64,000 nucleotides of DNA from Acidobacteriota bacterium (GTDB taxonomy: Bacteria; Acidobacteriota; Terriglobia; Acidiferrales; UBA7541). Made by a program: the position numbers and the translations under genes. Below, one piece after another: positions 25,564-40,546 of the stretch. The first letter of the stretch is position 1, and each line of letters opens with the position of its first letter. The notes beneath the pieces were generated by a model that had not been told where the DNA came from, did no database searches, and saw only the letters and a list, made by a program, of their open reading frames with translations. Location of the stretch: positions 1-64,000 of the forward strand of contig QHYU01000174.1 of assembly GCA_003224235.1 (NCBI GenBank), given 5' to 3'.

Positions 25564-26439
25564 TTACGCCTGCCCTTTGGCTTTGGCGTCGGGATACTCG
25601 TACACGCCGCGACCTGCCTTGCGGCCGAGTCTTCCCGCCTTGACGTATTGCCGGAGCAGCGGGCTCGGGCGGTACTTCTCGCCAAGTGTGTTATGCAGAT
25701 ACTCGAGGATGCTCAGGCGAACGTCGAGCCCAACCAGATCGACCAGCTCAAACGGACCCATCGGATGGTTCAGACCCAGCCTCATCGCCTTGTCGATGTC
25801 CTCAGCCGAGGCGATGCCCTCCTGGAGCATGTGGAAAGCCTCGTTGCCGATCAGGGCGTTAATGCGGCTGGTGACGAAGCCGGGAGATTCGCGCACCACG
25901 ACCACTTCCTTGCCCATGCGGCGGCCTACCTCGCGGCAGGTGGCCAGGGTGTCCTCCGAGGTCTCCAGTGCGCGCACAATTTCCAGCAGCTTCATCTTGG
26001 GCACTGGATTAAAAAAGTGCATGCCCACACACTTCTCCGGGCGGCAGGTGACCGCGGCAATCTCGGTGATCGAAAGCGAGGAGGTATTGCTGGCGAAAAT
26101 TGCGCCCGGCTTGGCGAATTTGTCCAGAATACAAAAAATGTCGACTTTGAGTTCCATCTCCTCCGGCGCGGCCTCGATTACCAAGTCGGCCTCGCGGCAG
26201 GCCTCCTCAACCGAACCGGCGCTTCCCAGGCACGCGAGCGCCTGCTCCTTCTGCAGCGGGGTGACTTTGCCGCGGGCGATGCCCTCCTCGAGCGTCTCGC
26301 GAACGTATGCCAATCCCTGCTGCAGCACCGGAGCGGATACATCCTCCAAAATCGTGCAGTAGCCACCCAGCGCAGCAGCGTAAGCAATGCCGCGGCCCAT
26401 CGTGCCCGCGCCAATTACCGCAATCTTGTTTACCTCCAT
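25564..26439 (-). CDS. 3-hydroxyacyl-CoA (3-hydroxybutyryl/adipyl-CoA) dehydrogenase
   Basis: 291 aa, single-domain HBD/PaaH type. The Rossmann NAD loop is IAVIGAGTMGRGIA (6-19), the catalytic His lies in MHFFNPVPKMKLLE (about 140-153), and SPGFVTSRI and LGLNHPMGPFELVDLVGLDV mark the C-terminal dimer domain. It oxidises an L-3-hydroxyacyl-CoA with NAD+. It is the most downstream gene of the aromatic/acyl-CoA cluster, where it would suit 3-hydroxyadipyl-CoA or 3-hydroxypimelyl-CoA oxidation; that choice is inference. Confidence 0.94.
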   Translation of the reverse strand: MEVNKIAVIGAGTMGRGIAYAAALGGYCTILEDVSAPVLQQGLAYVRETLEEGIARGKVTPLQKEQALACLGSAGSVEEACREADLVIEAAPEEMELKVDIFCILDKFAKPGAIFASNTSSLSITEIAAVTCRPEKCVGMHFFNPVPKMKLLEIVRALETSEDTLATCREVGRRMGKEVVVVRESPGFVTSRINALIGNEAFHMLQEGIASAEDIDKAMRLGLNHPMGPFELVDLVGLDVRLSILEYLHNTLGEKYRPSPLLRQYVKAGRLGRKAGRGVYEYPDAKAKGQA

Positions 26440-26602: not shown

Positions 26603-27301
26603 TTAGCATCCTGGAATCACCGGCGCGCCTGTCTTTTCCATCGCGGCGCTGCGCGCTTGGTCGCCAATCTCAAGCAGCCGGGCGGCCGCGCGCCTCGCCG
26701 AGTCTTGCGCTGCCGGAGTACTAGCAAGCTGCGCCAGCACCGCGCAGCCAGCTTGATGATGGCGCTCCTCATCCGGGTTGATCACGTCGCGGTAAAGCCG
26801 CGCAATCTCTTTTTGCCCCGCGGCCTCGAGGAATTTCAGAAACTGCGCGTTGCGCCGGGCACCCATGGCTTCGCGAGCCACCAGGGCCGCGGCGACGCGC
26901 TCGACCGCCGTGTCTAAGGTGCGCAAATAGGCAAGAACAGGGCTCGGCGGCGCCAGCGGATCGAAACCCTCGAGCGAAACGCCCAGGGCGCGCACTTTTT
27001 CGGCGAGCAACTGGTAATGGCGCGCCTCGTCGCCCGCATGCCGCGCGAGCGCTAGCTTGGCGTCGATTTCCGGCGTAGTGGGCACCCAGGACGCGGCAAT
27101 CTCCGCGGCTTCGATTTCATTTTTCAACGCTATCTTCAGCAGGGCCGCCAGACCGCCGATCGCTCCGCCCTTTGCGGCGCTCAGCGAGTTCATGAGGGGC
27201 ACAGCATCGAGCTTAGAGAGAAATTTTTCATTCTCTGCCTTAAGTTGCTCAACGAATGCTTTGCCGTCCATCGAAACAATCCCTTGGACAAGCTCGCCCA
27301 T
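26603..27301 (-). CDS. Ferritin-like diiron protein
   Basis: 232 aa, all-helical. Four helices carry a complete diiron ligand set: E in LKNEIEAAEIAASW, E-x-x-H in AGDEARHYQLL, E in AALVAREAMGARRN and E-x-x-H in NPDEERHHQAG. This fits the ferritin-like fold shared by rubrerythrins and by PaaA/PaaC-like and MiaE-like oxygenases. It has no rubredoxin domain. Being inside an aromatic-degradation cluster, it could be an oxygenase component or an iron/peroxide protein; sequence alone cannot decide. Confidence 0.8.
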   Translation of the reverse strand: MGELVQGIVSMDGKAFVEQLKAENEKFLSKLDAVPLMNSLSAAKGGAIGGLAALLKIALKNEIEAAEIAASWVPTTPEIDAKLALARHAGDEARHYQLLAEKVRALGVSLEGFDPLAPPSPVLAYLRTLDTAVERVAAALVAREAMGARRNAQFLKFLEAAGQKEIARLYRDVINPDEERHHQAGCAVLAQLASTPAAQDSARRAAARLLEIGDQARSAAMEKTGAPVIPGC

Positions 27302-27371: not shown

Positions 27372-28229
27372 CTAACCACTTCGACGCGCCGGGAAAAGGC
27401 GCGCGGCGTTGTCATAGAGAATCTTCCGCTGAGCCTGCTCCGAAAGCGGCAGCGCCAAAAATTTCTGAATGTTTCCACGCACGTCCGGCACGCCCGGGCC
27501 GGGCCAATCAGTGCCGAAGAGCACCTTATCAGCGATCTCCTCCAGCCGCGGAAAATATTCCAGTAGCTTTTGGGGCGGAATCCCGGAAACATCCATATAC
27601 ATGTTTTTGTGCCGGCGGACGAGGAAGAAGGCCTCTTCCATCCACAAGGGCCGGCCGCCGTGTGCCAGGATCACCACCAGATCAGGGTAGTCCACGCTGA
27701 TGTCGTCGGCCAGCATCGGCTGGGCATGAACGTTTCGCGCGCCGGGAAAGATGGAAGTACCGGTGTGGACCATCACCGGCAGGCCGTTGGCCTGCGCCCG
27801 CTCGTAAATCGCCGCCAGCGGTCCCAAACCATCGCGATAGGCATTGGGCGAAAAAACCTGATGCGAGGGATGCACCTTGAGGCCTCGGATGCCGATCTTC
27901 ACCAGGCGATCGACTTCGGCGCCGGCGTCGGCGACGTACTTCGGATGAACCGAGCCGAAGGCAATCAGCCGCTCTGGCTTGGCGGCGCAGTAGCGCGCAA
28001 CCCAGTCGTTAACCTCCGGCGTAAAGCCGATGACGTCCGGACTGACGTAATTGATCAGGCCAGCGCGTTCGACGCCTGCGTCGTCGAGGAATCTCAGGAA
28101 GGCCGCCGGGTCGGCGGAGTATCTTTCCACATCTGCGTAATCACGCCGGCCGCGCTTGATCAGCTCGAGCGCGTGGGGCTTGAACATGTGCAGAGGCTGG
28201 ATGTGGATGTGAATATCGATGACGCGCAT
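27372..28229 (-). CDS. Amidohydrolase_2 family hydrolase/decarboxylase
   Basis: 285 aa from the ATG at 28229. Metal ligands are visible: HIHI at residues 6-9, VMVHTG near 151, VILAHGG near 188 and FGTDWP near 240. This is the TIM-barrel pattern of the ACMSD / gamma-resorcylate decarboxylase / 4-oxalomesaconate hydratase group, which acts on carboxylated ring or ring-cleavage intermediates. It lies directly downstream of the hcrB-type gene, so a role on an aromatic or ring-opened acid is plausible. The exact reaction cannot be assigned. Confidence 0.88.
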   Translation of the reverse strand: MRVIDIHIHIQPLHMFKPHALELIKRGRRDYADVERYSADPAAFLRFLDDAGVERAGLINYVSPDVIGFTPEVNDWVARYCAAKPERLIAFGSVHPKYVADAGAEVDRLVKIGIRGLKVHPSHQVFSPNAYRDGLGPLAAIYERAQANGLPVMVHTGTSIFPGARNVHAQPMLADDISVDYPDLVVILAHGGRPLWMEEAFFLVRRHKNMYMDVSGIPPQKLLEYFPRLEEIADKVLFGTDWPGPGVPDVRGNIQKFLALPLSEQAQRKILYDNAARLFPARRSG

Positions 28230-28315
28230 CGCAAATCGGCTCAGTGGAGATCCCTCGCCCGCCGCGAGAGGCCCAGAATGAGAAGGCACCAGCTTGCGCG
28301 TTACTCTGCCGTGGT

Positions 28316-29311
28316 TCAGGCGTTGCCGTTCTTCCAGGCCTCTTCCAAAGCGCGGCGGGCAAACAAGCGCACCATTTCGCGGCGATACACCGGCGTCGAA
28401 GCCGAAGTTGTCAGGGGCTTTCCGGTGCGAATAGCGGCGTGAGCGACGCGGTCAACCAGCTCCGCCGAATACCTTTGTCCCACCAGCCACTCGCTCGCTT
28501 CCTTGACCAGCAGCGGCGCCGGATTGACGGCGGTGATCGCAACCCGCGCTTCGCGGCAAACTCCGCTACGGTCTACCTCGAGGGTTACAGCCACCCCGGC
28601 CAGGGGATAATCGATCGAATCTCGAATGCGGAGTTTGTGATAGATGCCGCGGCGGCCGGCCGTACGCGCGGGGAGATAGACGGAGGTGACCAGTTCATCG
28701 CGGCCGAGCGCGATGCGATTCATGCCGTCGTTCAAATAAAATTGGGCGAGCGGAAGGCGGCGCCTCCCGCGCGGCCCGGTGATTTCCACTTCCGCGTCGA
28801 GCGTCAACAGTGCAGGGGCAGAATCGCCGGACCAGGCGGCCCAGCATCGCTTCCCGCCCGGAGCGACGTGGCAGACGTCGCCGTCTTTTTTCAGGCAGCC
28901 GCCCAACGCCTTGCGCCAGAAGTGAGACTGGTTGTACCAGAGGCAGCGCGTCTCCAAACACAAGTTGCCCCCCAGCGTACCCATATTGCGCTGCAGCGGC
29001 CCGGCGATGGTCGCGGCGGCGCTGACCAGCACCGGATAGCTGGCTTGCAGCAGCGGCGATCCAACGATTTCGGTAAGCGTCGTCAGCGCGCCGAGGCGCA
29101 GCGCGCCGGCGGCGGCGATCGTGATGCCTTGCAGCACGCGGATGGGCTTGATGTCCACCAGCACGCGCGGCGCGAAAAGCTTCATCTGCAAGTTCGGCAC
29201 GACGTCGGTGCCGCCAGCGATGATCACCGCCTCAGGGCCGTTGTCCGCTAGGAGGCGCACAGCCTCTTCAATCGTGCTGGGGCGCGCGACGCGCGAAGCC
29301 GGCATCGTCAT
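28316..29311 (-). CDS. hcrB: FAD subunit of a molybdenum hydroxylase, 4-hydroxybenzoyl-CoA reductase type
   Basis: 331 aa. FAD sites are IAGGTD (31-36) and GTLGGN (111-116). Directly after, an insert of about 40 residues carries cysteines at 118, 123, 139, 147 and 156 (LCLETRCLWYNQ; GCLKKDGDVCHV; KRCWAAW). In 4-hydroxybenzoyl-CoA reductase this loop binds an extra [4Fe-4S] cluster that ordinary xanthine dehydrogenase-family FAD subunits lack, allowing electrons to flow from ferredoxin to the substrate. LRIRDSIDYPLAG is also typical of HcrB. The reaction would be reductive removal of the ring hydroxyl from 4-hydroxybenzoyl-CoA. It overlaps the molybdenum subunit stop as ATGA. The identification rests on motif similarity. 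Confidence 0.88.
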   Translation of the reverse strand: MTMPASRVARPSTIEEAVRLLADNGPEAVIIAGGTDVVPNLQMKLFAPRVLVDIKPIRVLQGITIAAAGALRLGALTTLTEIVGSPLLQASYPVLVSAAATIAGPLQRNMGTLGGNLCLETRCLWYNQSHFWRKALGGCLKKDGDVCHVAPGGKRCWAAWSGDSAPALLTLDAEVEITGPRGRRRLPLAQFYLNDGMNRIALGRDELVTSVYLPARTAGRRGIYHKLRIRDSIDYPLAGVAVTLEVDRSGVCREARVAITAVNPAPLLVKEASEWLVGQRYSAELVDRVAHAAIRTGKPLTTSASTPVYRREMVRLFARRALEEAWKNGNA

Positions 29312-29958
29312 CGCGAGCCTCCGTTCGTGCCGGGCGCGTCGTTGCCGGCCCGCTGTTTCTCTTTTTCACGCAGGGCCGCCAGGATCTTCTCCGGGGTAAT
29401 CGGCAGCGTGTTGATGCGCACGCCGACAGCATCGTAGATGGCGTTGGCGATCGCTGGAATGGTCGCGGCGAGCGAGCCTTCACCGGCCTCCTTGGCCCCA
29501 AACGGGCCTTCCGGATCGATGCTCTCAACGATGATGGATTCAATCTCAGGCGTTTCGAGCGTCGAAGGAATGCGGTACTCCAGCAGCGTCGGGTTCATCA
29601 GGCGACCCTTGTTCCACACCATCTCTTCCTGAAGCGCCTGACCAAGACCCATGTAGACTGAGCCCTCGATCTGACCCTCGACGGTCATGGGGTTGAGCGC
29701 CTTGCCGCAGTCGTGCGCCGCGATGATGCGGTGGACGTGCACGCGACCGGTCTCAGTGTCCACGGAAACCTCAGCCACCTGCGCGCTGTAACTGTAAGAG
29801 GGAGACGGGCCCACGCCGGCGCCCTTGAAATTGCCGCCACGAGCGTCTTCCGGCGGGGCGTAGGTGCCCTTGGCCACCAGAGCACCGTGGAAATCGATCG
29901 CCGCAACCGCCGCTTCGTCGAAGCGCAGGCGCAGGCGCGAGTCTCGCAGCCGAATTTC
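29308..29958 (-). CDS. hcrA: Molybdenum subunit (HcrA-like), C-terminal part after frameshift
   Basis: About 216 codons in a different frame from the N-terminal part. It carries the end of the family: DFHGALVAKGTYAPPE, GPSPSYSYSAQVAEVSVDTE, AHDCGKALNPMTVEGQIEGS and GAKEAGEGS with the active-site Glu. Joined to the upstream part it would make about 760 aa, the normal HcrA size. The shift falls around 29940-29970. No sensible start codon opens this piece, so either the sequence has an indel error or the gene is broken. Confidence 0.75.
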   Translation of the reverse strand, partial: EIRLRDSRLRLRFDEAAVAAIDFHGALVAKGTYAPPEDARGGNFKGAGVGPSPSYSYSAQVAEVSVDTETGRVHVHRIIAAHDCGKALNPMTVEGQIEGSVYMGLGQALQEEMVWNKGRLMNPTLLEYRIPSTLETPEIESIIVESIDPEGPFGAKEAGEGSLAATIPAIANAIYDAVGVRINTLPITPEKILAALREKEKQRAGNDAPGTNGGSR

Positions 29959-31589
29959 TTTGCCACAGCAGCCAAGATCTGCCCGCGCATTTGTTTGGCC
30001 GCTTCCAGGCAGGCGTTCCCCGCCATGAACGTCACGCGGCTCGAATAGCTGCCCAAATCTACCGGAGTGAGTTCCGTATCGGCAGCCACCAGTTTGACGC
30101 GCTCCGGCCGCACGCCCAGGACTTCGGCGACGATCTGGACCTGGATGGTGTCTGACCCTTGACCAATCTCCGACGCGCCGGTGTAGAGTGTCACGGCGGC
30201 GTCGCGATCGACTTTGATGTGTACGGTGGTGTGCGGCATGTTCGAGCGGATGATGGGGTTGGCCGCCCCGCTGACGTAGTGGCTGCAAGCCATGCCGACG
30301 CCGCGGCCGTAAGGCAGTTTCCCTTTCTTCTGCGCCCAGCCGGAGCGTTCGACCACCCTTTCGATGCATTCCGGCAAGCCATAGCTGGTGACGCGCAGGC
30401 CGTTCACGGTGATGCATGGAGCCCGCAGCAGATTGCGACGGCGAACCTCGACGGGATCGAGTCGCGCGTCGTGCGCGAGCGCGTCGAGCATAGCCTCAAA
30501 GGCGAAGCGCACGTTGACGGTGCCGTGGCCCCGCATGGCGCCGCAGGCGGGCTTGTTGGTGAGCACGCGATAGCCGTCGTATTTCACGTTGGGAATGTCG
30601 TAGATCGCGCCCAACAGCGCGCCGGAGTAAAGCACAGTGACTGGGCCGTAGCCGCAGTACGCGCCGCCGTCCTGCACCACGCGAGCCGCCACGGCGCTGA
30701 TTTTGCCCTCACGCGTCAGACCGACTTTCAGGTCCACAATGGTGATCGGCCGGCCGCGATGCGCATAGAACACCTCTTCGCGCGTGTAGGTGATCTTCAC
30801 CGGACGCTTGGCCTTCTTGGCAAGCACCGCCGCGGCCACCTCGAGCGGGATCACTTCACTCTTACCGCCAAACCCGCCGCCCACCAGCGGCTTGATGACG
30901 CGGATCTGGCTCATGGGCATTTCGCAGACTTCGGAGACGGTGCGGTGCAGGTAGTAGGGCACCTGCGTCGAGGAGTGCACGGTTAGCCGCCCGTTGGGCT
31001 CCCAAATAGCCAGCGTCGAATGCGGCTCCATCGCGGCGTGGGTGACCTCGGCGGCGTAGTAATGCTCCTCGCGGACGAAGGTTGCATTGGCGAAGCCTTG
31101 CTCCAGGTTCCCGAACTCGTGGTGGTACTCCTTCTCGATGTTGTGCGGCTTGCTCTCGTGGATCCAATCAGCCGCCGCCTTCATCGACTCCAGCGGATCG
31201 AACCACGCCGGGAGCGGGTCGTAGTCCACCTCAATCAGCTCCAGCGCTTCCTCGGCGATTTCGGCGCTGGTGGCAGCGACCGCGGCGACGTTGTCGCCGA
31301 TGTAGCGCACCCGATCGAGTGCAAAGACACACTCGTCGTGCCCGATGGGCAGGATGCCGTAGGGATTGGGCGCGTCGCGGCCGGTTGCGACCGCTTTGAC
31401 GCCCGGCAGCGCTTCCGCTTTCGAGGTATTGATGGCCCGGATGCGCGCGTGCGCATGCGGCGAGTGCAGGATCTTGCCGAAGAGCATTCCCGGCGCAACA
31501 AGGTCGTCGGCGTATTTACCCAGGCCGGTCACTTTTCCCGGGGCGTCGGTCATGGGGAGCGGCTTGCCGATCACAGAGTGTGGCGCCAT
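29685..31589 (-). CDS. hcrA: Molybdenum subunit (HcrA-like), N-terminal part, frameshifted
   Basis: Homologous sequence runs from residue 1 to about 544, then the frame continues as Arg/Trp-rich nonsense to 29685. N-terminal aldehyde oxidase/xanthine dehydrogenase a/b hammerhead: GKPLPMTDAPGKVTGLGKYADD. Molybdopterin-binding domain: LVGGGFGGKSE (about 230), ACGAMRGHGTVN and EIGQGSDTIQVQIVAEVLG. This subunit binds molybdopterin-cytosine dinucleotide and does the chemistry. The gene sits 3 nt after the 2Fe-2S subunit and overlaps the FAD subunit through its C-terminal part, so the order is hcrC-hcrA-hcrB. Confidence 0.85.
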   Translation of the reverse strand: MAPHSVIGKPLPMTDAPGKVTGLGKYADDLVAPGMLFGKILHSPHAHARIRAINTSKAEALPGVKAVATGRDAPNPYGILPIGHDECVFALDRVRYIGDNVAAVAATSAEIAEEALELIEVDYDPLPAWFDPLESMKAAADWIHESKPHNIEKEYHHEFGNLEQGFANATFVREEHYYAAEVTHAAMEPHSTLAIWEPNGRLTVHSSTQVPYYLHRTVSEVCEMPMSQIRVIKPLVGGGFGGKSEVIPLEVAAAVLAKKAKRPVKITYTREEVFYAHRGRPITIVDLKVGLTREGKISAVAARVVQDGGAYCGYGPVTVLYSGALLGAIYDIPNVKYDGYRVLTNKPACGAMRGHGTVNVRFAFEAMLDALAHDARLDPVEVRRRNLLRAPCITVNGLRVTSYGLPECIERVVERSGWAQKKGKLPYGRGVGMACSHYVSGAANPIIRSNMPHTTVHIKVDRDAAVTLYTGASEIGQGSDTIQVQIVAEVLGVRPERVKLVAADTELTPVDLGSYSSRVTFMAGNACLEAAKQMRGQILAAVAKKFGCETRACACASTKRRLRRSISTVLWWPRAPTPRRKTLVAAISRAPAWARLPLTVTARRWLRFPWTLRPVACTSTASSRRTTAARRSTP

Positions 31590-31592
31590 GTC

Positions 31593-32099
31593 TCAGCTCC
31601 CTACCGGGGCGGTTTTCGCGGCTTCGCGCGCCTGCGCGCGCTCGATCGCAAGCTTCACCGACTCGTAGATCTGCATGTAGCCTGTGCAGCGACACAGGTT
31701 CGAGGAAAGCGCCAGGCGAATCTCCTCGAGCGTAGGATTGGGATTGTGATCGAGCAGCGCCTTGGTGGCAATCAGGAAGCCGGGCGTGCAGTAGCCGCAC
31801 TGAGCGCCGCCTGCAACCGCGTAGCCCTCCTGCACCGGGTCTAGCTCGCCCGGGGGCGCGATGCCCTCAACAGTCACGATTTCGCAGTCCTGGTAGCACG
31901 AGGCGATTGCCACACAGCTCAGCATCGGCACGCCGTCCACCAGAACCGCGCAGCAGCCGCAGCTCGAGTCGTCGCAACCGCGCTTCGAGCCGGTCAGACT
32001 CAAGTCCTCGCGCAGCACGTCAAGCAGCAGCTTTTCCGCCGGCGCGGCGATTTCGCGCAATTCGCCGTTTACCTTCAACCGAATCAGTTCTTTCGTCAT
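31593..32099 (-). CDS. hcrC: [2Fe-2S] subunit of the molybdenum hydroxylase
   Basis: 168 aa. The N-terminal plant-type ferredoxin motif is SKRGCDDSSCGCCAVLVDG with a further Cys in LSCVAI. The second cluster motif is CGYCTPGF followed by LCRCTGY in the four-helix domain. Both [2Fe-2S] sites of the family are intact. It relays electrons between the FAD/[4Fe-4S] subunit and the molybdenum centre. It is first of the three subunit genes and is separated from the CoA-transferase gene upstream by a palindromic repeat. Confidence 0.94.
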   Translation of the reverse strand: MTKELIRLKVNGELREIAAPAEKLLLDVLREDLSLTGSKRGCDDSSCGCCAVLVDGVPMLSCVAIASCYQDCEIVTVEGIAPPGELDPVQEGYAVAGGAQCGYCTPGFLIATKALLDHNPNPTLEEIRLALSSNLCRCTGYMQIYESVKLAIERAQAREAAKTAPVGS

Positions 32100-32302: not shown

Positions 32303-33226
32303 CTAATATCCGAAATTCGCGGGCGCCGAAAATGCGTGCTGTCTTACGCCAAGCGATTCAACACGGCAGGCGCCGAGCAAATTCAAGTACTCGCGCCGGT
32401 CGGCGACGCCGGCGACCCAGCGCGCAAGCCATTTCTCGAAATCTTCGACCTGGCGGCTCTGCTCGTGATACTGGCTGAAGAAAGCGTGGTCGCGGCCGTA
32501 GTATCCCTGCACCGGCGAGGGATGCGCGCCCCAAGGCTCGTGCACCACCGCCGCCACCAGGAATCCCGGGATGAGCGTGCGGTTGGGGTCGGAGGCAATC
32601 ACTTCCGGGGCGACGATCTCCTCAGCCACCACGATCACTTTGCGCGCAGCGCGCGCCCCGTCCACCGCTACGCCCAGGTTGCCCCACAGGTGCGTATTGC
32701 CGAATTGGTCTGCACGCTGCGCGTGAAGGATGGCCACGTCGGGTCGCAACGCGCGCACGGCAACTAATTTCTCTTCGTTCACCGGCGACGGGAACTCGCG
32801 CAGGTTGCCATTTTTCTTGAGCAGGTCGCTGCCCAGCGTCGAATAAGTGGGCATGAAGGGCACACCCAGGGCGCCGGCATGCAGCCCGAGCGCCAGGGTA
32901 AAGTTCGAGTAATCCACCATCTGCACTGGGCGAGGAATGTTGTGCTCAACCGCGCGGCGCAGGCCATAGCCCACGCCGGCGGAGACGTTGCCTACCCACG
33001 CCGCCAGCACGTGTGAAACGCAGCCCGCGCCGATCAGTTGATCGAACAGGATGTCGGAAATCGGCCCGACCAGCGTCAGGTCGCGCCGCCCCTGACGGAT
33101 CAGCTCGTGCCCCGCAGCAAAGGGGATCATCTGCTCGAGCTGCGCTCCCAGCAGCACCATCGAGCCCGACGGCACGTGCTCGGCAACAGCCTGCTGCATG
33201 GAGATGAGTTTGGACGCGGCGCTCAT
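32303..33226 (-). CDS. Class I CoA-transferase, subunit A
   Basis: 307 aa, of the glutaconate CoA-transferase A / IpdA-like group. The N-terminal VPSGSMVLLGAQLEQMIPFA and the DLTLVGPISDILFDQLIGAG region form the CoA-transferase fold. Later AILHAQRADQFGNTHLWG and KVIVVAEEIV are typical of the alpha subunit. It pairs with the subunit B gene at 34018-34809; unusually, the hydratase gene lies between them. Class I enzymes move CoA between acids, but the relative IpdAB is a hydrolase that opens a steroid ring by retro-Claisen chemistry, so ring-opening is also possible here. Confidence 0.88.
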   Translation of the reverse strand: MSAASKLISMQQAVAEHVPSGSMVLLGAQLEQMIPFAAGHELIRQGRRDLTLVGPISDILFDQLIGAGCVSHVLAAWVGNVSAGVGYGLRRAVEHNIPRPVQMVDYSNFTLALGLHAGALGVPFMPTYSTLGSDLLKKNGNLREFPSPVNEEKLVAVRALRPDVAILHAQRADQFGNTHLWGNLGVAVDGARAARKVIVVAEEIVAPEVIASDPNRTLIPGFLVAAVVHEPWGAHPSPVQGYYGRDHAFFSQYHEQSRQVEDFEKWLARWVAGVADRREYLNLLGACRVESLGVRQHAFSAPANFGY

Positions 33227-33241
33227 TCTCTTGGGATATTT

Positions 33242-34021
33242 CTAACGGCCTCTCCAAACGGGCACGCGCTTTTCGAGGAAAGCGCAAATACCTTCCTGCG
33301 CGTCTTCAGTTTTCATCAGCCGGTTCAAATAAAGCTCTTCAGCTGCGCGCAGGCTGCGGTCGAAATCGAGCCCCGTGGATTTCCACAGCGCGCGACGCGT
33401 CATGCCCAGCACGGCCGGGCTGCGCAAGCGCAGCTCAGCCAGTAATGCATCAACCTCCGCGTTAAGCTGGTCGTCAGGAACCACCCGTGTGGCCAGCCCT
33501 AATTGTTGCGCCTCTCGAGCGGGAATCGCGCGCCCAGTCAGGATTAGATCCAGTGCCGCGCGCGGTCCCACCAAGCGCGGAAGCATCACCATCGCCACCG
33601 GCGGAAAGCAGCCGAGTTTGATCTCGGGCTGGCCGAATTGCGCCGATTCGGCAGCGACGACAAAATCGCAAGAGGTTGCCAGCTCACAGCCGCCGCCCAA
33701 GCAATGACCATGCACAGCGGCAATGGTGACGCAGTCGGCGTGCCAGAGCCGCCGGAAGATGGCGTGAAAAGTGGCAAGCATCTCGGCCACGCGATCCGGA
33801 GCGTGATCCCGAACTTCTGCTCCAGCCGAGAAGCCTTTTGGTCCCGCGCCCCGGAAAATGACATAAGCGTTCTGGTCCGGGAGCGAGCTGAGCGCTTGAT
33901 CGAGCGCGCGCATCATGGGGATATCAATGATGTTGAGCGGCGGGCGATCGAGTGTGATCCAGAGCGTCGAGCCTTGCGCGCGAACATGGACTGTCTCGGC
34001 GACGGATTCGCGCTCGGTCAT
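33242..34021 (-). CDS. Enoyl-CoA hydratase family, resembles cyclohexa-1,5-dienecarbonyl-CoA hydratase
   Basis: 259 aa crotonase fold. The oxyanion segments are GFSAGAEVRDHAPDRVAEML and GHCLGGGCELAT, followed by FGQPEIKLGCFPPVAMVMLP with the acid Glu. The GAEV-x-x-H-x-P-x-x-x-x-x-ML, CLGGG and GQPEIKLG-x-F combination is what I recall for Dch of the anaerobic benzoyl-CoA route, which hydrates the cyclic dienoyl-CoA. Its ATG overlaps the CoA-transferase B stop (ATGA). Assignment within the crotonase superfamily is tentative; a general enoyl-CoA hydratase role is the alternative. Confidence 0.85.
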   Translation of the reverse strand: MTERESVAETVHVRAQGSTLWITLDRPPLNIIDIPMMRALDQALSSLPDQNAYVIFRGAGPKGFSAGAEVRDHAPDRVAEMLATFHAIFRRLWHADCVTIAAVHGHCLGGGCELATSCDFVVAAESAQFGQPEIKLGCFPPVAMVMLPRLVGPRAALDLILTGRAIPAREAQQLGLATRVVPDDQLNAEVDALLAELRLRSPAVLGMTRRALWKSTGLDFDRSLRAAEELYLNRLMKTEDAQEGICAFLEKRVPVWRGR

Positions 34022-34809
34022 CGGTTGGTCCAGAAGCGGTTGGGGTCGAGTTCGCGCATGACGGCCAGTTCGGCGCCGCTGGGCGGCAAAGTTTCGAGCA
34101 AGTCGTCGGCCACGCGCAGAGTCCAGCCGGTATTGCCCAGCACGTCTTCGACGCGCACGCCCGGATGCACCGAGGCGAGGTAGGCCTCACCGTCGTTGCT
34201 AAAACGCAGCACGCCAAGCGTGGTGATGACCGCGGAGGGCCCGGAGCGCAGCGGCAATCCCTGCGCGCGCCGCCAACTATCGCCCGAGCCAAAGCCGGGC
34301 GAGGTGACATGTTTCACCCGTTCGACCAGGCGATTGCGGTCGTGTTCGAGCAACACCACGGTGCGCTGCGCCAGGCAGGCGATGTCGCAGGCTCCACCCG
34401 AGCCGGGCAGGCGAATGTCCTGGCCGCCGCGGTTTCCCCAAGTGGAATTGAGGTTGCCGAAGCGGTCTGCTTCGGCCGCGCCAAGAAAGCCCACGTGCAC
34501 CCGGCCCTGCTGCAGCAGCGCCATGACGTCGAGCATCTGGCCGCATAGCGTGGCGCCAAGAAGATTGGGCGGATCGGCCATGGTGTAGAGCAGTTCCGGC
34601 GCAGGGGTCTCGCGGATGACGCCGTTTTCGTACAGCCCGATCGCCGCTGGGGCGTGGGTGCGCTTGGCCACCAGAAAGGCCAGCAATGGGAGGCGCATGC
34701 CTACAAACACCACCTCCGCGTCGCGGATCTCGCGTGCTGCCGCCGCAACCATCAATTCGCCGAGCGAATAGCCGCGAGCGGGGGCTTCCGGTTGGGCGCG
34801 AGTGGACAT
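34018..34809 (-). CDS. Class I CoA-transferase, subunit B
   Basis: 263 aa from the ATG at 34809; the longer frame upstream overlaps the BoxB-like gene and is discarded. GLYENGVIRE (Glu at about 61) matches the ENG motif holding the catalytic Glu of class I CoA-transferase beta subunits (about residue 54 in glutaconate CoA-transferase). DRFGNLNSTWGNRGGQDIRL and HPGVRVEDVLGNTGW complete the domain. It keeps this Glu, which favours true transferase activity over the hydrolytic IpdAB type, but that is inference. It is translationally coupled to the hydratase gene. Confidence 0.88.
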   Translation of the reverse strand: MSTRAQPEAPARGYSLGELMVAAAAREIRDAEVVFVGMRLPLLAFLVAKRTHAPAAIGLYENGVIRETPAPELLYTMADPPNLLGATLCGQMLDVMALLQQGRVHVGFLGAAEADRFGNLNSTWGNRGGQDIRLPGSGGACDIACLAQRTVVLLEHDRNRLVERVKHVTSPGFGSGDSWRRAQGLPLRSGPSAVITTLGVLRFSNDGEAYLASVHPGVRVEDVLGNTGWTLRVADDLLETLPPSGAELAVMRELDPNRFWTNR

Positions 34810-34823
34810 GGATCCCCGGAGCG

Positions 34824-35942
34824 CTACTGCACCGACCCTTTTGCGGCAATCCAGTTGGGCTCGGTGGCCTGGATCTCGGTTACCAGTTTGATGTCTTCGG
34901 GCTGTGGCAGAGCTTCCCGCAGGTGCTCTTCGTATTCGCGCGGGGAGAGCAGCTCGCCTTTGACACTGTAGGGCTGGCCGGCGAACTCGCCAATGTAGCG
35001 GTGGAATTTCAGGTCCGGCACGTAGAGGGGCGTCTGGCCAGCGGGGATATGCTTGTTGATTTGCTCGATCAGCTTCTCGCACTCGAGATGGAACAGGAAG
35101 CGGCTATGCTCGTTCATGCGCTCGAGATCCGCTTCCTCCTTGGCCTGCGGCTCATCGTAGCGGCCCTTCAGGCCCCAAACGTAGAACCAGTGCGCCGAGC
35201 TCGAGCGGTCCACGCCAAACAAGTCGTGGCTCACCGGCACCCACTTGTTGATGAACTTCTGGATGATGGTGAGCGGCACCACACCCGCGCGGACAATGCG
35301 CTTGATGCCGTCCTGGCCCGTGCCCAGGTGGAACGATTCCTCGCGCAGCATCGGGATCATCGACTGCGCCACCGGGGCAAATCCCGAGTAACTCAGCATG
35401 GTGAGCTGGAACTTGCCGTCGCGATCGACGAAATCGGTGTAGGTGAAGAAGTCGAGCCAGTGGTCGACGTCCTGGTTGAAGGCCCCGAGCAACCGCTTCT
35501 GATCAAACGCCCGCCGCTCCAGCATCTTCTGCGCCTCGACGCGCCCGCTGTAGCCGAAATGGTTGATCAGCAGGTGGCACATTTGCCAGCCATGACGCAT
35601 CTCCTCGGTGACCACGCGGCACAGTGACTGACGGTCATGCTCGGACGGCGCGTTCTGAAAAAGCCTTCGCTGCTGCTCGACCGAAGCGAACTCGGTGTCG
35701 CCCTGATAAACGATCAGGTTCTGCATCGCGTCCCGGATGCGCTGGTCCGGGATCTGAATCACCTTCTCCCACTTCGGGCGACCCTTAAAGGCGCCAAATT
35801 CGATTTCGTTCGAGCGCGTCGGGCCGAACTTGGCCTCGAATTTGTAGTCTACGATTTCCGGATAAGCCACCCCGATGTCCTTCTGCCAGACACGGAATAG
35901 GTCCACCCAGTCGTCAAAAGTCGCAATGCGTCGTACAGCCAT
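34824..35942 (-). CDS. BoxB-like diiron oxygenase (benzoyl-CoA 2,3-epoxidase family)
   Basis: 372 aa from the ATG at 35942, preceded by GGGAGGA. Conserved BoxB blocks are present: VYQGDTEFASVEQQRRLFQN, VTEEMRHGWQMCHLLINHFG with E-x-x-H, LLGAFNQDVDHWLDFFTYTD, FVDRDGKFQLTMLSYSGF, and MLREESFHLGTGQDG with the second E-x-x-H. These give the diiron carboxylate centre of the phenylacetate/benzoyl-CoA epoxidase family. It is about 100 residues shorter than typical BoxB. BoxAB converts benzoyl-CoA plus O2 to the 2,3-epoxide. No BoxA reductase or BoxC lyase is in the window. The substrate here is unproven. Confidence 0.87.
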   Translation of the reverse strand: MAVRRIATFDDWVDLFRVWQKDIGVAYPEIVDYKFEAKFGPTRSNEIEFGAFKGRPKWEKVIQIPDQRIRDAMQNLIVYQGDTEFASVEQQRRLFQNAPSEHDRQSLCRVVTEEMRHGWQMCHLLINHFGYSGRVEAQKMLERRAFDQKRLLGAFNQDVDHWLDFFTYTDFVDRDGKFQLTMLSYSGFAPVAQSMIPMLREESFHLGTGQDGIKRIVRAGVVPLTIIQKFINKWVPVSHDLFGVDRSSSAHWFYVWGLKGRYDEPQAKEEADLERMNEHSRFLFHLECEKLIEQINKHIPAGQTPLYVPDLKFHRYIGEFAGQPYSVKGELLSPREYEEHLREALPQPEDIKLVTEIQATEPNWIAAKGSVQ

Positions 35943-36030: not shown

Positions 36031-36852
36031 CTAGCGGCCTCGGAAGTGCGGCGGACGCTTCTCCAGGAACGCGTTCAGCCCTTCGAGGCAATCCTCGGAA
36101 AGAAAGCACTCCTTCTGCTGCTGAATCTCGGCCTCCAGCGCGCGCGCGAGCCCCGCCCGATCGGCACCAAACAGCGCCTGCTTGACCGCGCGAACCGCCA
36201 GCGGCGGCGCCACGGCCAACCGCTCGGCAAACGCGCGAGCCTCGTCGGCCAGCCGGTCGTGCGGCACCACGCGGTTGACCAGGCCGATGCGTTCAGCCTC
36301 CGCAGCCGTAATCATCTCGCCGGTGTAAAACAGCTCCGCGGCGCGCGCGGGTCCCACCAGGCGCGGCAGCAGATAGGTGCCACCAAAATCCGGGAACAAG
36401 CCGACTTTGGCGAAGTTTTGACCGAAGCTCGCCTGATCGGAGGCTACTCGCAGATCGCACGCCAGCGCCAGATTCATTCCCGCGCCGGCGGCCGGGCCAT
36501 TCACCGCGGCCAGCACCGGCTTGCGCATATCCGCCACGGCCAGGACAATCTGCACGCCGGAGCGCATCAGGCCATCGAGTTCCGGGCCGGCGTTGCGCTG
36601 CCGCGCGTCTCGCAGCACGGCAATATCGCCGCCAGCGCAGAACGCACGACCGGCGCCCGTCAGCACCACCACGCGCACGTCTCGGTCTTCCGCCGCGCGG
36701 GCCAGAGCCGCGACCAGCGCCGCGCCCAACTCGGTGTTGAGCGCGTTCAAGCGCTCGGGCCGGTTCAATGTGAGGGTGGCGACGCCGGCCTCTCGGCTCT
36801 CGAGAACCAGAGTGGCACCGGGCACGGACATCGGTTGTGCGGCGTCAACCAT
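36031..36852 (-). CDS. Enoyl-CoA hydratase/isomerase, PaaG-like
   Basis: 273 aa from the ATG at 36852, six nt after the glycosylase stop; a longer frame running into the glycosylase gene is rejected. Crotonase motifs are AFCAGGDIAVLRDA, GPAAGAGMNLALACDLRVAS and FAKVGLFPDFGGTYLLPRLV. The PDFGG Asp and the lack of the PE-x-x-LG Glu match PaaG/2-cyclohexenylcarbonyl-type isomerases rather than classical hydratases. PaaG isomerises the ring epoxide to an oxepin, and a similar step after a BoxB-like epoxidation would be attractive. Confidence 0.87.
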   Translation of the reverse strand: MVDAAQPMSVPGATLVLESREAGVATLTLNRPERLNALNTELGAALVAALARAAEDRDVRVVVLTGAGRAFCAGGDIAVLRDARQRNAGPELDGLMRSGVQIVLAVADMRKPVLAAVNGPAAGAGMNLALACDLRVASDQASFGQNFAKVGLFPDFGGTYLLPRLVGPARAAELFYTGEMITAAEAERIGLVNRVVPHDRLADEARAFAERLAVAPPLAVRAVKQALFGADRAGLARALEAEIQQQKECFLSEDCLEGLNAFLEKRPPHFRGR

Positions 36853-36857
36853 GTTCG

Positions 36858-37367
36858 TCAATCGTTCAGTTTCTTTAGGACCCGGGCAAGCTGGCGGAAA
36901 AACCGCAGCTTCTGCGCATCCCCCACGGCGTTCTGTCCACTCGTCGAAGGCAGCACAAACACCTGAGCGCCGTAGAGCCGCTCTTTCTGTAGGCCCAGCT
37001 TGCACGGCCGCTGGGCGAACTTCTCGAATACCAGCTTGCCGTTGAAGGCGATCACACGCGGAGTGAATTCTTCGAGTTTCCGCGCCAGCAGGATGCGCCC
37101 TTCAGCAAACTCCTGCCGCTCGATTTCTTCGATGCCGCGCGTGGGACGCTTGACCAGGTCCGTCAACCCAATGCCGAACTCGATCATGCGCTTGTCGTCC
37201 TTATATTCCAGCGGCTCCGGCACCACGCCCGAATCATAGAGCAGCGGCCAGAACACATTCCCGCGGCCCGCGTAGTAGTGCCCGAGGCGCGCCGAGCGCT
37301 CGCCGGGGTTGCAGCCAACGATGACCAGCTTCATTCCGCGCCGCAGATAGTCGGGAAGAGTACGCAT
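36858..37367 (-). CDS. mug: G:T/U mismatch-specific DNA glycosylase (Mug/TDG family)
   Basis: 169 aa, normal family length. Motif 1 is VIVGCNPGERSARLGHYYAG with the NPG active loop, followed by NVFWPLLYDSG and FGIGLTDLVKRPTRG. Motif 2 lies in VLPSTSGQNA near residue 145. It removes uracil or thymine from G mismatches. The gene fits exactly between the ALDH (adjacent base 37368) and the PaaG-like gene (6 nt gap), so it is embedded in the catabolic operon although its function is unrelated. Confidence 0.9.
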   Translation of the reverse strand: MRTLPDYLRRGMKLVIVGCNPGERSARLGHYYAGRGNVFWPLLYDSGVVPEPLEYKDDKRMIEFGIGLTDLVKRPTRGIEEIERQEFAEGRILLARKLEEFTPRVIAFNGKLVFEKFAQRPCKLGLQKERLYGAQVFVLPSTSGQNAVGDAQKLRFFRQLARVLKKLND

Positions 37368-38837
37368 CTATGCCAGGTTCACCCAGACGCTCTTGACCTG
37401 CGTGTAGTGCTCGATGGCGTGCAGGCTCAACTCGCGGCCGTAGCCGCTCATCTTGTAGCCGCCGAAGGCCGCCGCCGGATCGTAGTTGTTGTAGGTGTTG
37501 ATCCACACCGTGCCGGCCTGGAGCTTGTGCGCGACGCGGTGGGCCTTGGCGATGTCGCGCGTCCAGACGGCCGAAGCCAGGCCGTAGGGCGTTTCGTTGG
37601 CCAAGCGCACCGCTTCGTCGATGTCTCCGAACTCGATCGAGGCCAGCACGGGACCGAAGATTTCTTCCCGCGCGATGGTCATATCGTTGCGCACGCCGTC
37701 GAAAACCGTTGGCTGCAGGAAGCAGCCCTTGCCGTTGCCCACCGAGACGCGCTCGCCGCCAGCCACCAGCTTCGCGCCTTCGGCCTTGCCCTTCGCGATG
37801 TAGCCCAGCACCGTCTGCATCTGCCGCTCGCTGACCAGCGCGCCAAAGCGCGTTTTGGGGTCGAGCGGGTCAGCAGGCTGAAGTTTCTTGGCGCGGTCCA
37901 CCAACTTCTGCAGAAAGTCGTCGTGGATTTTCTTGTCCACGAACAGCCGCGAGCCCGCCGCGCAGACTTCGCCTTTTCCGTAGAAGATGCCGATGGTGGC
38001 GCCGCGCACGGCCGCGTCCAAGTCCGCATCCGCGAAAACGATATTGGGAGACTTGCCGCCAAGTTCGAGCGTGACGCGCTTGAGCGTGTCGGCTGAATCG
38101 CGAACGATTTCCTGACCGGTGCGGGTTTCACCGGTAATGGCGACCTTGGCCACCCCCGGGTGCCGCACCAGCGCCTTGCCGAGCGTCGCGCCCGGGCCGG
38201 TAATGATGTTCACCACGCCGTCGGGCACCCCAGCCTCCTGGCAGAGTTCGCCGAAGCGAATCGCGGTGAGCGGCGTCCAGCTGGCAGGCTTCAGCACGAC
38301 GGTATTGCCAGCAGCCAGTGCCGGAGCTACCTTCCACGATGCCAGCAGCAGCGGAAAATTCCAGGGGACGATTGCAGCCACCACGCCCAGTGGCTCGCGC
38401 AGCGTGTAGTGCAAGAACGGCCCACGTACCGGCACAGTCTCGCCGTGAATTTTCGTCGCCCAGCCGGCGAAATAGCGGAAGACCTCGGCGACCATGGGCA
38501 TGTCGATTTGCCGGGACTCAAAGATGGGTTTGCCGTTATCCAGCGTCTCCAAAGTGCCGAGTTCTTCGTTGTATTTGTCCGCCAGGTCGCCGAGCTTCCA
38601 GAGAAGCCGGGCACGGTCAGAGGCGCTCATCTCGGGCCAGGGGCCGGACTCAAAGGCTTTGCGGGCGGCCTCGACCGCCGCGGCGGCGTCGCGCTCATCG
38701 CCCTCGGCGATCGCGGTGATCGTCTCGCCTGTGGCAGGGTTGATGGTGGGGAACGTCTTGCCCGAGGCGGCGTCAACCCACTTACCGCCGATAAAGAGTT
38801 TTCCAGGTTTGACCTGAATCTGGGGTGCCGTGGCCAT
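37368..38837 (-). CDS. NAD(P)+-dependent aldehyde dehydrogenase
   Basis: 489 aa, the usual ALDH length. The NAD-binding part has IVPWNFPLLLASWKVAPALA and KPASWTPL, the catalytic Glu is in LELGGKSPNIVF, the catalytic Cys is in GKGEVCAAGSRL (about 292), and EEIFGPVLA and the C-terminal AFGGYKMSGYGRE follow. It is of the betaine/aryl-aldehyde superfamily type. In the box pathway an ALDH (BoxD) oxidises 3,4-didehydroadipyl-CoA semialdehyde. This gene could serve that step, but the substrate is not readable from sequence. Confidence 0.95.
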   Translation of the reverse strand: MATAPQIQVKPGKLFIGGKWVDAASGKTFPTINPATGETITAIAEGDERDAAAAVEAARKAFESGPWPEMSASDRARLLWKLGDLADKYNEELGTLETLDNGKPIFESRQIDMPMVAEVFRYFAGWATKIHGETVPVRGPFLHYTLREPLGVVAAIVPWNFPLLLASWKVAPALAAGNTVVLKPASWTPLTAIRFGELCQEAGVPDGVVNIITGPGATLGKALVRHPGVAKVAITGETRTGQEIVRDSADTLKRVTLELGGKSPNIVFADADLDAAVRGATIGIFYGKGEVCAAGSRLFVDKKIHDDFLQKLVDRAKKLQPADPLDPKTRFGALVSERQMQTVLGYIAKGKAEGAKLVAGGERVSVGNGKGCFLQPTVFDGVRNDMTIAREEIFGPVLASIEFGDIDEAVRLANETPYGLASAVWTRDIAKAHRVAHKLQAGTVWINTYNNYDPAAAFGGYKMSGYGRELSLHAIEHYTQVKSVWVNLA

Positions 38838-38944: not shown

Positions 38945-39754
38945 CTACTTCCCCTTGAACTGAGGCTGGCGCTTTTCCACATACGCGGCCAAGCCTTCCT
39001 TGGCGTCCTCACTGGTGAAAAGCAACTGCTGCAACTCACGCTCGAGACCCAGCGCCTCCGCGAAAGACACCTCTGAGCCGGTGACGACCGAGCGCTTGAT
39101 GCGGCCGACGGCGCGCGAAGCTTTGTGCGGCGGGCAGAACTGCCGCGCATAGGCCATCACGTCGTCCCAGAAGGAGTCGCGTTCGTAGATGTAGTGGATC
39201 AGACCCCACTCGAGCGCTTCCTCGAAGCTGAAGGTGCGGCCGGTGGCCATCAACTCGAGAGCGCGCGCCCTGCCGATTACGCGCGGGAGCCGCTGCGTCC
39301 CGCCCGTGCCCGGCAGCACGCCCAGGTTTACCTCCGGCAGGCCGATCTTGCCGCCTTCCTGCTTGGCGATACGAATATCGCAGGCCAGCGCAATCTCGAG
39401 ACCTCCACCTACAGTATGGCCGTTGAGCGCCGCAATCACCAGCTTGGGCGTCTGCTCGAGACGCGAAAGAGTCTCGTTGGCGTGCAGGCAGAAATAGTAC
39501 TTGAACTGCGGGTCGGCCTTGGTGAGCATCGGAATGCTGGCGCCGGCAGAGAAAAACTTCTCGCCGGCGCCGCGCAGCACGATCACGTAAACACTTTCAT
39601 CCATGCGCCCCTGCAGGATGGCCGCGTCGAGCTGGCGCATCATCTCGTAGGTGTAGGTGTTGGCCGGCGGGTCATCCATCTCCAGAATGGCCACTCCATC
39701 TTCCACCCGGTAGCGAATGAGCTCTTTCTGCTCCACTGCTGGCGTGGTTACCAT
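38945..39754 (-). CDS. Enoyl-CoA hydratase/isomerase family protein
   Basis: 269 aa crotonase-fold protein. Motifs are DDPPANTYTYEMM, KFFSAGASIPML, GHTVGGGLEIALACDIRIAK and IGLPEVNLGVLPGTGGTQRL, the last including the acid Glu of hydratases. The C-terminus (YVEKRQPQFKGK) is standard. It is the first enzyme gene after the TetR regulator in the minus-strand cluster, about 60 nt downstream of it. It probably hydrates an unsaturated acyl-CoA produced after ring opening. Confidence 0.93.
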   Translation of the reverse strand: MVTTPAVEQKELIRYRVEDGVAILEMDDPPANTYTYEMMRQLDAAILQGRMDESVYVIVLRGAGEKFFSAGASIPMLTKADPQFKYYFCLHANETLSRLEQTPKLVIAALNGHTVGGGLEIALACDIRIAKQEGGKIGLPEVNLGVLPGTGGTQRLPRVIGRARALELMATGRTFSFEEALEWGLIHYIYERDSFWDDVMAYARQFCPPHKASRAVGRIKRSVVTGSEVSFAEALGLERELQQLLFTSEDAKEGLAAYVEKRQPQFKGK

Positions 39755-39817: not shown

Positions 39818-40492
39818 CTACCCCACAGCCCGGGTGGCTTCTTGAACGGCGTGGCGGTCGAGCGCTACCGGCCGCGGGCGCGGTGTCACGAGGCCATTCG
39901 TCACCCCATCAAGAAAGATTGCGGACATGGTTTCCGCCAGCCGGTCGGCCTGCGGGTCCACCTTGGGATTATGCCATTTATAAATCCAATTCATCATGCC
40001 GAACAGGCTCAGCACCGCCACCCGTGGGTTAACGCGGCGCATGTGCCCGGTCTTGCGCAGGGCCTCGAAAATGCCCCGGGCCAGTTCGTAGTACCGCCTT
40101 TTGATCTCCGCCACTTCCCGGCGGTATGGGTCCTCCAGAGCCTCGTCCTCGTGCGCAAGTACCTTCATTTCCGCCGGATGGCGCAGGAAATAGTCGATGT
40201 GATTGCTGACCAGCGCGCGCAGGCGTTCTTCCGGCGCGACGGCCGCGACCAGGCGGCGCTCGAGGCGCTTGAGGATGCTCGTAAATGTATTAATTTGAAT
40301 GAGATATAGCAGTTTCTGCTTGCTCTCGAAGTAGTAATACAGGCCGGAGAGAGAGACGCCGCTCGCGCGGCTAATGTCGCGGATGGAAGCACCCTCGTAG
40401 CCCTTTTCGGAGAACACCCGCGCCGCATGGCGAAGGATATGACGCAGTTTGCCCTGGAAATTTCGGTGGTTGGTTGGTGTCGTTTTAGCCAC
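39818..40492 (-). CDS. TetR-family transcriptional regulator
   Basis: 224 aa from a GTG at 40492. The frame can be read from a TTG at 40546, but that TTG is part of a -35 TTGACA. The N-terminal HTH is ILRHAARVFSEKGYEGASIR followed by DISRASGVSLSGLYYYFESK. The C-terminal helical domain is of the TetR_C type seen in acyl-CoA-responsive regulators. It heads the minus-strand acyl-CoA/aromatic cluster, and its promoter overlaps a double palindrome, which suggests autorepression. The ligand could be an aromatic or acyl-CoA thioester (inference). Confidence 0.92.
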   Translation of the reverse strand: MAKTTPTNHRNFQGKLRHILRHAARVFSEKGYEGASIRDISRASGVSLSGLYYYFESKQKLLYLIQINTFTSILKRLERRLVAAVAPEERLRALVSNHIDYFLRHPAEMKVLAHEDEALEDPYRREVAEIKRRYYELARGIFEALRKTGHMRRVNPRVAVLSLFGMMNWIYKWHNPKVDPQADRLAETMSAIFLDGVTNGLVTPRPRPVALDRHAVQEATRAVG

Positions 40493-40502
40493 AGCAGTAA
40501 GT

Positions 40503-40520
40503 CGAACGTTCGTTCGAACG
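40503..40520. promoter_or_regulatory. Putative TetR operator (two overlapping palindromes)
   Basis: CGAACGTTCG (40503-40512) and CGTTCGAACG (40511-40520) are both perfect 10-bp palindromes sharing two bases. They overlap the -10 box of the tetR promoter and lie 11 nt before the tetR start, an ideal autorepression site. Confidence 0.6.
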
Positions 40521-40546
40521 GTAACGCGAGATTCAGTGACTGTCAA
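40518..40546 (-). promoter_or_regulatory. Promoter of the tetR gene / aromatic cluster
   Basis: On the minus strand, consensus TTGACA (40541-40546), 17-nt spacer, then TACCGT (40518-40523). The -35 matches fully and the -10 matches TA---T. It would give a 5' leader of about 18 nt. Confidence 0.6.

Follow-up and report, generated by a model that had tools for sequence, protein, structure and literature searches.

A Short BoxB-like Diiron Epoxidase Gene in a Conserved Acidobacteriota Cluster Points to a Candidate Variant of the Aerobic Box Pathway without BoxA and BoxC

The window, which is the whole stretch of 64,000 nucleotides analyzed here, belongs to contig C214; the genome measures 4.57 Mb and is 99.38% complete. 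Its named relatives are Acidobacteriota, several of them labelled Candidatus Acidiferrales or Terriglobia. The gene under study is a minus-strand open reading frame at 34824-35942 that encodes 372 amino acids from an ATG, or 378 amino acids if an upstream TTG is used; a plus-strand reading was ruled out by stops in the translation. A sequence-only reading of this DNA had described the gene, for which it gave no strand, as a short BoxB-like epoxidase. The four conserved blocks that it named (GDTEFASVEQQ, EEMRH, FVDRDGKFQL, and EESFH) are all present in the minus-strand frame, and its estimate that the protein is about 100 residues shorter than BoxB was correct (372 residues against a length of 471 for the NCBIfam BoxB profile, TIGR03225). 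The genes of the surrounding cluster are given below; counts out of 80 refer to the best 80 of the 350 stretches that were found, in a scan of a public sequence collection, to encode a relative of short BoxB.

25564-26439, minus strand: 3-hydroxyacyl-CoA dehydrogenase, lower pathway (NF006722, 422.1 bits, cut-off 429; 14/80 loci)
27372-28289, minus strand: Amidohydrolase_2 family member, a conserved cluster gene (PF04909; 43/80 loci)
28316-29311, minus strand: hcrB-like FAD subunit (TIGR03195, 332.9 bits, cut-off 404.55; 40/80 loci)
29308-31589, minus strand: hcrA-like molybdopterin subunit in two frames (TIGR03194, 769.3 + 248.8 bits in two pieces, cut-off 994.55)
31593-32099, minus strand: hcrC-like [2Fe-2S] subunit of a molybdenum hydroxylase nearest 4-hydroxybenzoyl-CoA reductase (TIGR03193, 169.0 bits, cut-off 257.8; 54/80 loci)
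32303-33226, minus strand: CoA-transferase family protein, subunit A type (PF01144; 21/80 loci)
33242-34021, minus strand: ECH_b, a crotonase nearest the cyclohexadiene-carbonyl-CoA hydratase model (TIGR03189, 167.5 bits, cut-off 292.5; 65/80 loci), probably with a lower-pathway role
34018-34812, minus strand: CoA-transferase family protein, subunit B type (PF01144; 22/80 loci)
34824-35942, minus strand: short BoxB-like diiron epoxidase, 372 aa (TIGR03225, 227.6 bits, under the cut-off; six diiron ligands; structure model)
36031-36852, minus strand: ECH_a, a crotonase like PaaG-type isomerases (Asn/Phe at two catalytic Glu positions; 16/80 loci)
36858-37367, minus strand: mug-like mismatch DNA glycosylase, inside the catabolic cluster (18/80 related loci)
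37368-38837, minus strand: aldehyde dehydrogenase, candidate for a BoxD-type semialdehyde step (NCBIfam ALDH families, best BADH, 588.6 bits, cut-off 668.6; 40/80 loci)
38945-39754, minus strand: ECH_c, a single-domain crotonase with BoxC-type Cys/Asn-Glu/Glu/Glu residues, candidate ring opener (motif, tree, 70/80 loci)
39818-40546, minus strand: TetR-family regulator, heading the cluster (61/80 loci)

The hcrA-like gene is interrupted by a frame break near 29.92-29.95 kb, which may be an assembly error or a true frameshift; a rough test of motif and length showed a long single-frame hcrA-like open reading frame in 41 of the 80 related loci. A small protein encoded at 26603-27301 on the minus strand has weak similarity to DUF455 and to haem-oxygenase-like (iron redox) proteins, both below the Pfam cut-offs, and a related stretch is present in locus L032. 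In relatives, genes for small rhodanese-like and Spx/ArsC-like proteins, named by eye, separate the hcr genes from those on the boxB side (for example, L034 13475-13795 and L037 6144-6422; 46/80 and 15/80 loci, respectively). A scan of the window for a strict sigma-70 pattern gave no match.

Short BoxB matched TIGR03225 with an E-value of 2.8e-67 and 227.6 bits, below the curated cut-off of 499.1, and matched the PDB BoxB chain 3per with an E-value of 3.6e-55. The residues of Azoarcus BoxB used for mapping were taken from PMC5489048. The BoxB diiron ligands Glu120, Glu150, His153, Asp211, Glu240, and His243 correspond to Glu84, Glu114, His117, Asp173, Glu202, and His205 of the short protein, and they showed no variation in an alignment of 39 short and long sequences. 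Second-shell residues were also retained: Gln80, Thr83, Ser87, Phe155, and Phe165 are the equivalents of BoxB Gln116, Thr119, Ser123, Phe193, and Phe203. The benzoyl pocket has two changes, Phe206 to Tyr168 and Thr210 to Val172, the second at a position that is Val or Ile in the short forms; a further change near the site is Pro121 to Phe85. The predicted structure, for which 39 aligned sequences (35 short and 4 long) were used, had a pLDDT of 88.6. When it was compared with the PDB by Foldseek, the best 11 matches were all BoxB chains, with TMq values of 0.86-0.87 (0.86 to 3pm5). In the alignment the long forms have additional stretches after residues 219 and 266, and the N-terminus of solved BoxB is longer than that of the short protein.

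Phylogenetic analysis split short and long BoxB together from PaaA-type proteins with support of 100/99, and the short protein scored 35.6 bits against the PaaA family TIGR02156, below the cut-off of 280. The six long BoxB sequences formed one clade on a branch of length 2.36. In the best tree this clade was nested among the short forms; a single short clade was not rejected (p-AU 0.179). Distant PaaA-like diiron proteins (approximately 26% identity) are encoded at L058 8173-8901 and L059 998-1636, in two genomes that also encode short BoxB.

The genome contains no second BoxB-like gene at an E-value of 0.001. The best score for BoxA anywhere in the genome was 22.9 bits (cut-off 459.2), and the best for BoxC was 77.3 bits (cut-off 712.3), the latter obtained with an ordinary-sized crotonase of the same cluster. 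The sequence-only reading had stated that neither BoxA nor BoxC is encoded nearby, which was confirmed, and had allowed that the protein might group with a different diiron family or that boxA and boxC might lie elsewhere in the genome. Neither was found: the protein clustered with BoxB and not with PaaA, and no gene in the genome scored above the BoxA or BoxC family cut-off. The grouping with BoxB and the genome-wide absence of boxA and boxC support its further proposal, that the electron donor and the ring-opening step are different or encoded elsewhere. A member of the benzoate-CoA-ligase family is encoded on another contig (521.7 bits, above the cut-off of 375.25). The HGD-D family, to which the subunits of class I benzoyl-CoA reductase belong, had no match in the genome. 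Among the papers listed in searches of openly licensed literature, we found no description of a short, BoxC-free BoxB.

The labels of the best 80 loci were those of Acidobacteriota groups in 76 cases, the others being Wallbacteria (L084), Rokuibacteriota (L106), Chloroflexi (L115), and Deltaproteobacteria (L132). Queries for BoxC, BoxD, and BoxR-type proteins matched in 0 of these 80 loci. Many of the contigs are of limited length; among the 43 loci in which each flank of the gene spans 8 kb or more, ECH_c was present in 40 and all three hcr genes in 30. Conserved synteny across loci led us to reject the view that the gene is stray or degenerate. The broader idea that its product is a relative that serves in detoxification or has degenerated, and takes no part in catabolism, could appeal to the copies in L085, L086, and L090, where no partner query matched, and to the frameshifted hcrA of the window, but dozens of loci conserve the operon and all ligands are invariant in the 39 short and long sequences; we consider it very improbable.

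To describe the distribution of the two forms, 95 genomes of the window's order were surveyed. Classes were set by identity (short, 67-100%; long, 39-47%), and in two of the genomes counted as long (G086 and G094) the open frames span only 389 and 378 aa. One of the genomes counted as short (G010) has the gene as two overlapping pieces. Short BoxB was found in 27 of the 95 genomes, long BoxB in 40, and both in none. If the two forms were independent, 11.4 genomes with both would be expected; the chance of observing none is 1e-8 when relatedness is ignored. Among 18 genomes of the class from outside the order, four had the short form, three the long form, and none both. Genera g3, g4, g6, and g13 each contain short-BoxB and long-BoxB genomes; therefore, if the genera are natural groups, one form was swapped for the other more than once.

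BoxC above its cut-off was found in 39 of the 95 genomes, every one of them a long-BoxB genome, so that 39/40 long-BoxB genomes had BoxC as compared to 0/27 short-BoxB genomes. In the sole exception, G103, BoxB lies close to the contig start. BoxA (E-value 1e-30) was found in none of the 95 genomes, the 40 with long BoxB included. Absence of BoxA was therefore rejected as a hallmark of the short form, because the canonical BoxBC of this order is also without a recognizable BoxA; the absence of BoxC, unlike that of BoxA, is particular to the short form.

The distribution of ECH_c, scored as present at an E-value of 1e-75 or less, bears on how the two forms are related. ECH_c was found in 38 of the 95 genomes: 24/27 with short BoxB, 11/40 with long BoxB, and three without any BoxB, two copies in this last group being only 56-62% identical. 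The three short-BoxB genomes missed were G096, where the gene is split in two pieces (L066), and G039 and G042 (87% and 61% complete), in which ECH_c was not found. All 11 long-BoxB genomes with ECH_c have BoxC, and in them ECH_c and canonical boxB are on separate contigs. Short boxB is absent from all 11 of these ECH_c loci, and 10 of them have at least two more cluster genes; L171, which ends soon after, has one. In L165, L166, and L173 the neighboring genes close the gap where boxB is missing. Survival of ECH_c and other cluster genes without short boxB fits replacement by canonical BoxBC, and it looks as if the short enzyme was replaced in this way in these 11 genomes.

This apparent replacement is the main ground for taking benzoyl-CoA as the substrate. 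Canonical box loci of relatives also adjoin hcr-like genes (7/8 long loci, L050-L056 and not L057). HCR was the best NCBIfam family for each of the three hcr-like subunits of the window, all of which fall below their equivalog cut-offs, so that the reaction that feeds the pathway is uncertain. In two short-boxB loci from another family of the class, L047 and L048, there is a divergent regulator with HTH and shikimate-kinase domains, which scored 301.4 and 308.6 bits, respectively, against the NCBIfam model "anaerobic benzoate catabolism transcriptional regulator" (cut-off 204). A regulator of the same family in an annotated boxCBA cluster of Mycetohabitans scored 469.3 bits and is 40% identical to that of L048, and HTH and shikimate-kinase domains are also encoded nearby in L049. 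BzdR and BoxR sense benzoyl-CoA. No BzdR/BoxR-type regulator was found in the best 80 loci, 61 of which have a TetR protein instead; thus, only the more distant short forms provide evidence from regulators. From the replacement by BoxBC, the hcr-like neighbors, and the BzdR/BoxR-type regulators in two distant loci, we infer that the substrate would be benzoyl-CoA.

The substrate could instead be another aromatic CoA ester, for example a benzoyl-CoA with a hydroxyl group or another substituent, the cluster then encoding a different pathway. The two substitutions in the pocket (Tyr for Phe206, and Val or Ile for Thr210), the scores of the hcr-like enzyme below the HCR cut-offs, the long branch to the long forms (2.36), and the lack of a BoxR-type regulator in the 80 best loci would all fit such a substrate. 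Because mutual exclusion with canonical BoxBC and apparent replacement by it argue against this reading, as do the BzdR/BoxR-type regulators that adjoin short boxB in L047 and L048, we regard it as unlikely.

No electron donor was recognized at the window locus. A thioredoxin-like [2Fe-2S] ferredoxin follows boxB in L047, L048, and L132, and a NuoF-like protein was identified in L132 by domain search and in L045 by eye (55% identity to that of L132). The ferredoxin and NuoF queries matched in 1/80 loci each among the best 80 of 350, and L106 has a nitroreductase-family gene after boxB. When the L048-type ferredoxin was searched for in the window's own genome, only weak matches were obtained, within open frames of 582 and 613 aa. 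In L132 the ferredoxin and the NuoF-like protein are encoded at 7405-8988, directly 3' of short boxB, and this pair is possibly an NADH-linked electron donor.

The candidate for the ring-opening step is ECH_c. In 70/70 of the loci that carry it (of the best 80), it is encoded upstream of boxB and in the same orientation, and in a Chloroflexi 54-19 genome (L115, a 730-kb contig) it lies approximately 50 bases upstream of boxB, with the other cluster genes absent within 21 kb. Cys111 and two glutamates of BoxC, Glu146 and Glu168, reportedly perform the chemistry, and these residue numbers agree with the numbering in PDB 2w3p. The positions of 2w3p Cys111, Asn115, Glu116, Glu146, and Glu168 were identical in an alignment of 8/8 BoxC and 69/69 ECH_c sequences (68 from the loci plus the copy in the window). 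The Cys is absent from the 63 ECH_b, 18 ECH_a, and 4 further crotonases of the window's genome that were aligned, eight crotonases having been found in the genome and one (L142) left out of the comparison, and it is present in PDB 2ppy. Distant ECH_c copies in L045 and L049 have Ala at this position, and the G037 copy (63%) has Ser.

When a crotonase tree was made without the motif columns, BoxC, ECH_c, 2ppy, and the L045 and L049 copies fell on one side of a branch with support of 100/99; support for BoxC, ECH_c, and 2ppy excluding L045 and L049 was 69/72. This tree contained 14 of the 69 ECH_c sequences along with 8 ECH_b and 9 ECH_a sequences; long branches meet in it, and it has few sequences as background. 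Against the BoxC family TIGR03222, ECH_c scored 77.3 bits (cut-off 712.3), and at 269 aa it is not of two-domain length. Its structure model had a pLDDT of 81.1, and the best 50 matches listed were generic crotonases, with 2w3p not among them, an absence that carries no weight either way. On the residues, the tree, and the synteny, we give ECH_c about an even chance of being the ring-opening enzyme; its retention in genomes that have BoxC weakens the case.

Other ring openers were considered. The CoA-transferase pair was marked down as a required ring opener, being present in only 21-22 of the 80 loci. The amidohydrolase and ECH_b were marked down as BoxC substitutes, because relatives of each adjoin canonical boxBC in one of the eight loci examined (a 59% ECH_b copy in L052 and a 75% amidohydrolase in L054). 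ECH_a has Asn and Phe at the two catalytic Glu positions in 16/18 aligned sequences, a loss of both glutamates that is presumably PaaG-like; NCBIfam scores also point to PaaG. Short BoxB might therefore epoxidize benzoyl-CoA and the ring be opened by another route, either by isomerization to an oxepin through the PaaG-like ECH_a or by ECH_b or the amidohydrolase, with ECH_c serving as an ordinary lower-pathway hydratase. The ECH_a substitutions, the presence of ECH_b in 65/80 loci, and the retention of ECH_c in 11/40 long-BoxB genomes are in keeping with such a route. However, ECH_a occurs in only 16/80 loci, the copies beside canonical boxBC indicate that ECH_b and the amidohydrolase are not specific BoxC replacements, and ECH_c is present in 40 of the 43 loci whose flanks both extend for 8 kb or more. 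We consider this alternative possible but rather unlikely.

The explanation that we favor, with moderate confidence, is that the gene encodes a compact benzoyl-CoA 2,3-epoxidase acting in a variant of the aerobic Box pathway in Acidobacteriota that has neither BoxA nor BoxC. In such a pathway, a CoA ligase would activate aromatic acids, and the hcr-like molybdenum enzyme would probably dehydroxylate 4-hydroxybenzoyl-CoA. Short BoxB would then epoxidize benzoyl-CoA with O2 at its conserved diiron site, a role suggested by the fold and ligands seen in the sequence and model. Judged by its residues, tree position, and synteny, ECH_c is the likeliest enzyme to open and deformylate the ring in the manner of the BoxC N-terminal domain, although at chances that are roughly even. 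The aldehyde dehydrogenase, ECH_b, and the 3-hydroxyacyl-CoA dehydrogenase would carry out BoxD-like and β-oxidation steps, and electrons may be supplied by a general ferredoxin or NADH route not recognizable at the locus.

A wider proposal is offered tentatively, with less confidence: that a second, compact aerobic benzoyl-CoA pathway, made up of short BoxB, a one-domain BoxC-like crotonase, and a non-BoxA donor, is standard in much of the Acidobacteriota, occurs also in metagenome-assembled genomes labelled Chloroflexi, Rokubacteria, Wallbacteria, and Deltaproteobacteria, and has repeatedly been swapped with canonical BoxBC. It may be a simpler, and possibly older, source of the two-domain BoxC. 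Surveys that score the pathway by BoxA, BoxB, and BoxC cut-offs would miss the variant, which falls below the BoxB cut-off and has no BoxC, and would count many soil Acidobacteriota as lacking aerobic benzoyl-CoA degradation. If ECH_c does carry out the BoxC reaction, then BoxC does not need its C-terminal half, and a 270-residue enzyme could be used to study the mechanism. The one-for-one exclusion of short and long forms inside genera amounts to a natural replacement experiment.

Comparison with known systems places short BoxB closest to BoxB (TIGR03225; PDB 3pm5 and 3per), with which it shares the fold, the six diiron ligands, and most second-shell residues. It differs in being approximately 100 residues smaller and under the family cut-off, in three altered residues near the site, and in that BoxA and BoxC partners were not found for it. 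The BoxB and BoxC structure papers are cited in PMC4498308. PaaA of phenylacetyl-CoA epoxidase is a distant diiron homologue (35.6 bits with TIGR02156, against a cut-off of 280) that lies outside the clade of BoxB and short BoxB. ECH_c resembles BoxC (PDB 2w3p) in having the equivalents of Cys111, Asn115-Glu116, Glu146, and Glu168 and in its tree position, which among the sampled crotonases is on the side of BoxC, whereas it is a one-domain protein of 269 aa as compared to about 555 aa for BoxC. Its top PDB sequence match is 2ppy, enoyl-CoA hydratase gk_1992 of Geobacillus kaustophilus (45% identity), which has the same Cys/Asn-Glu/Glu/Glu set.
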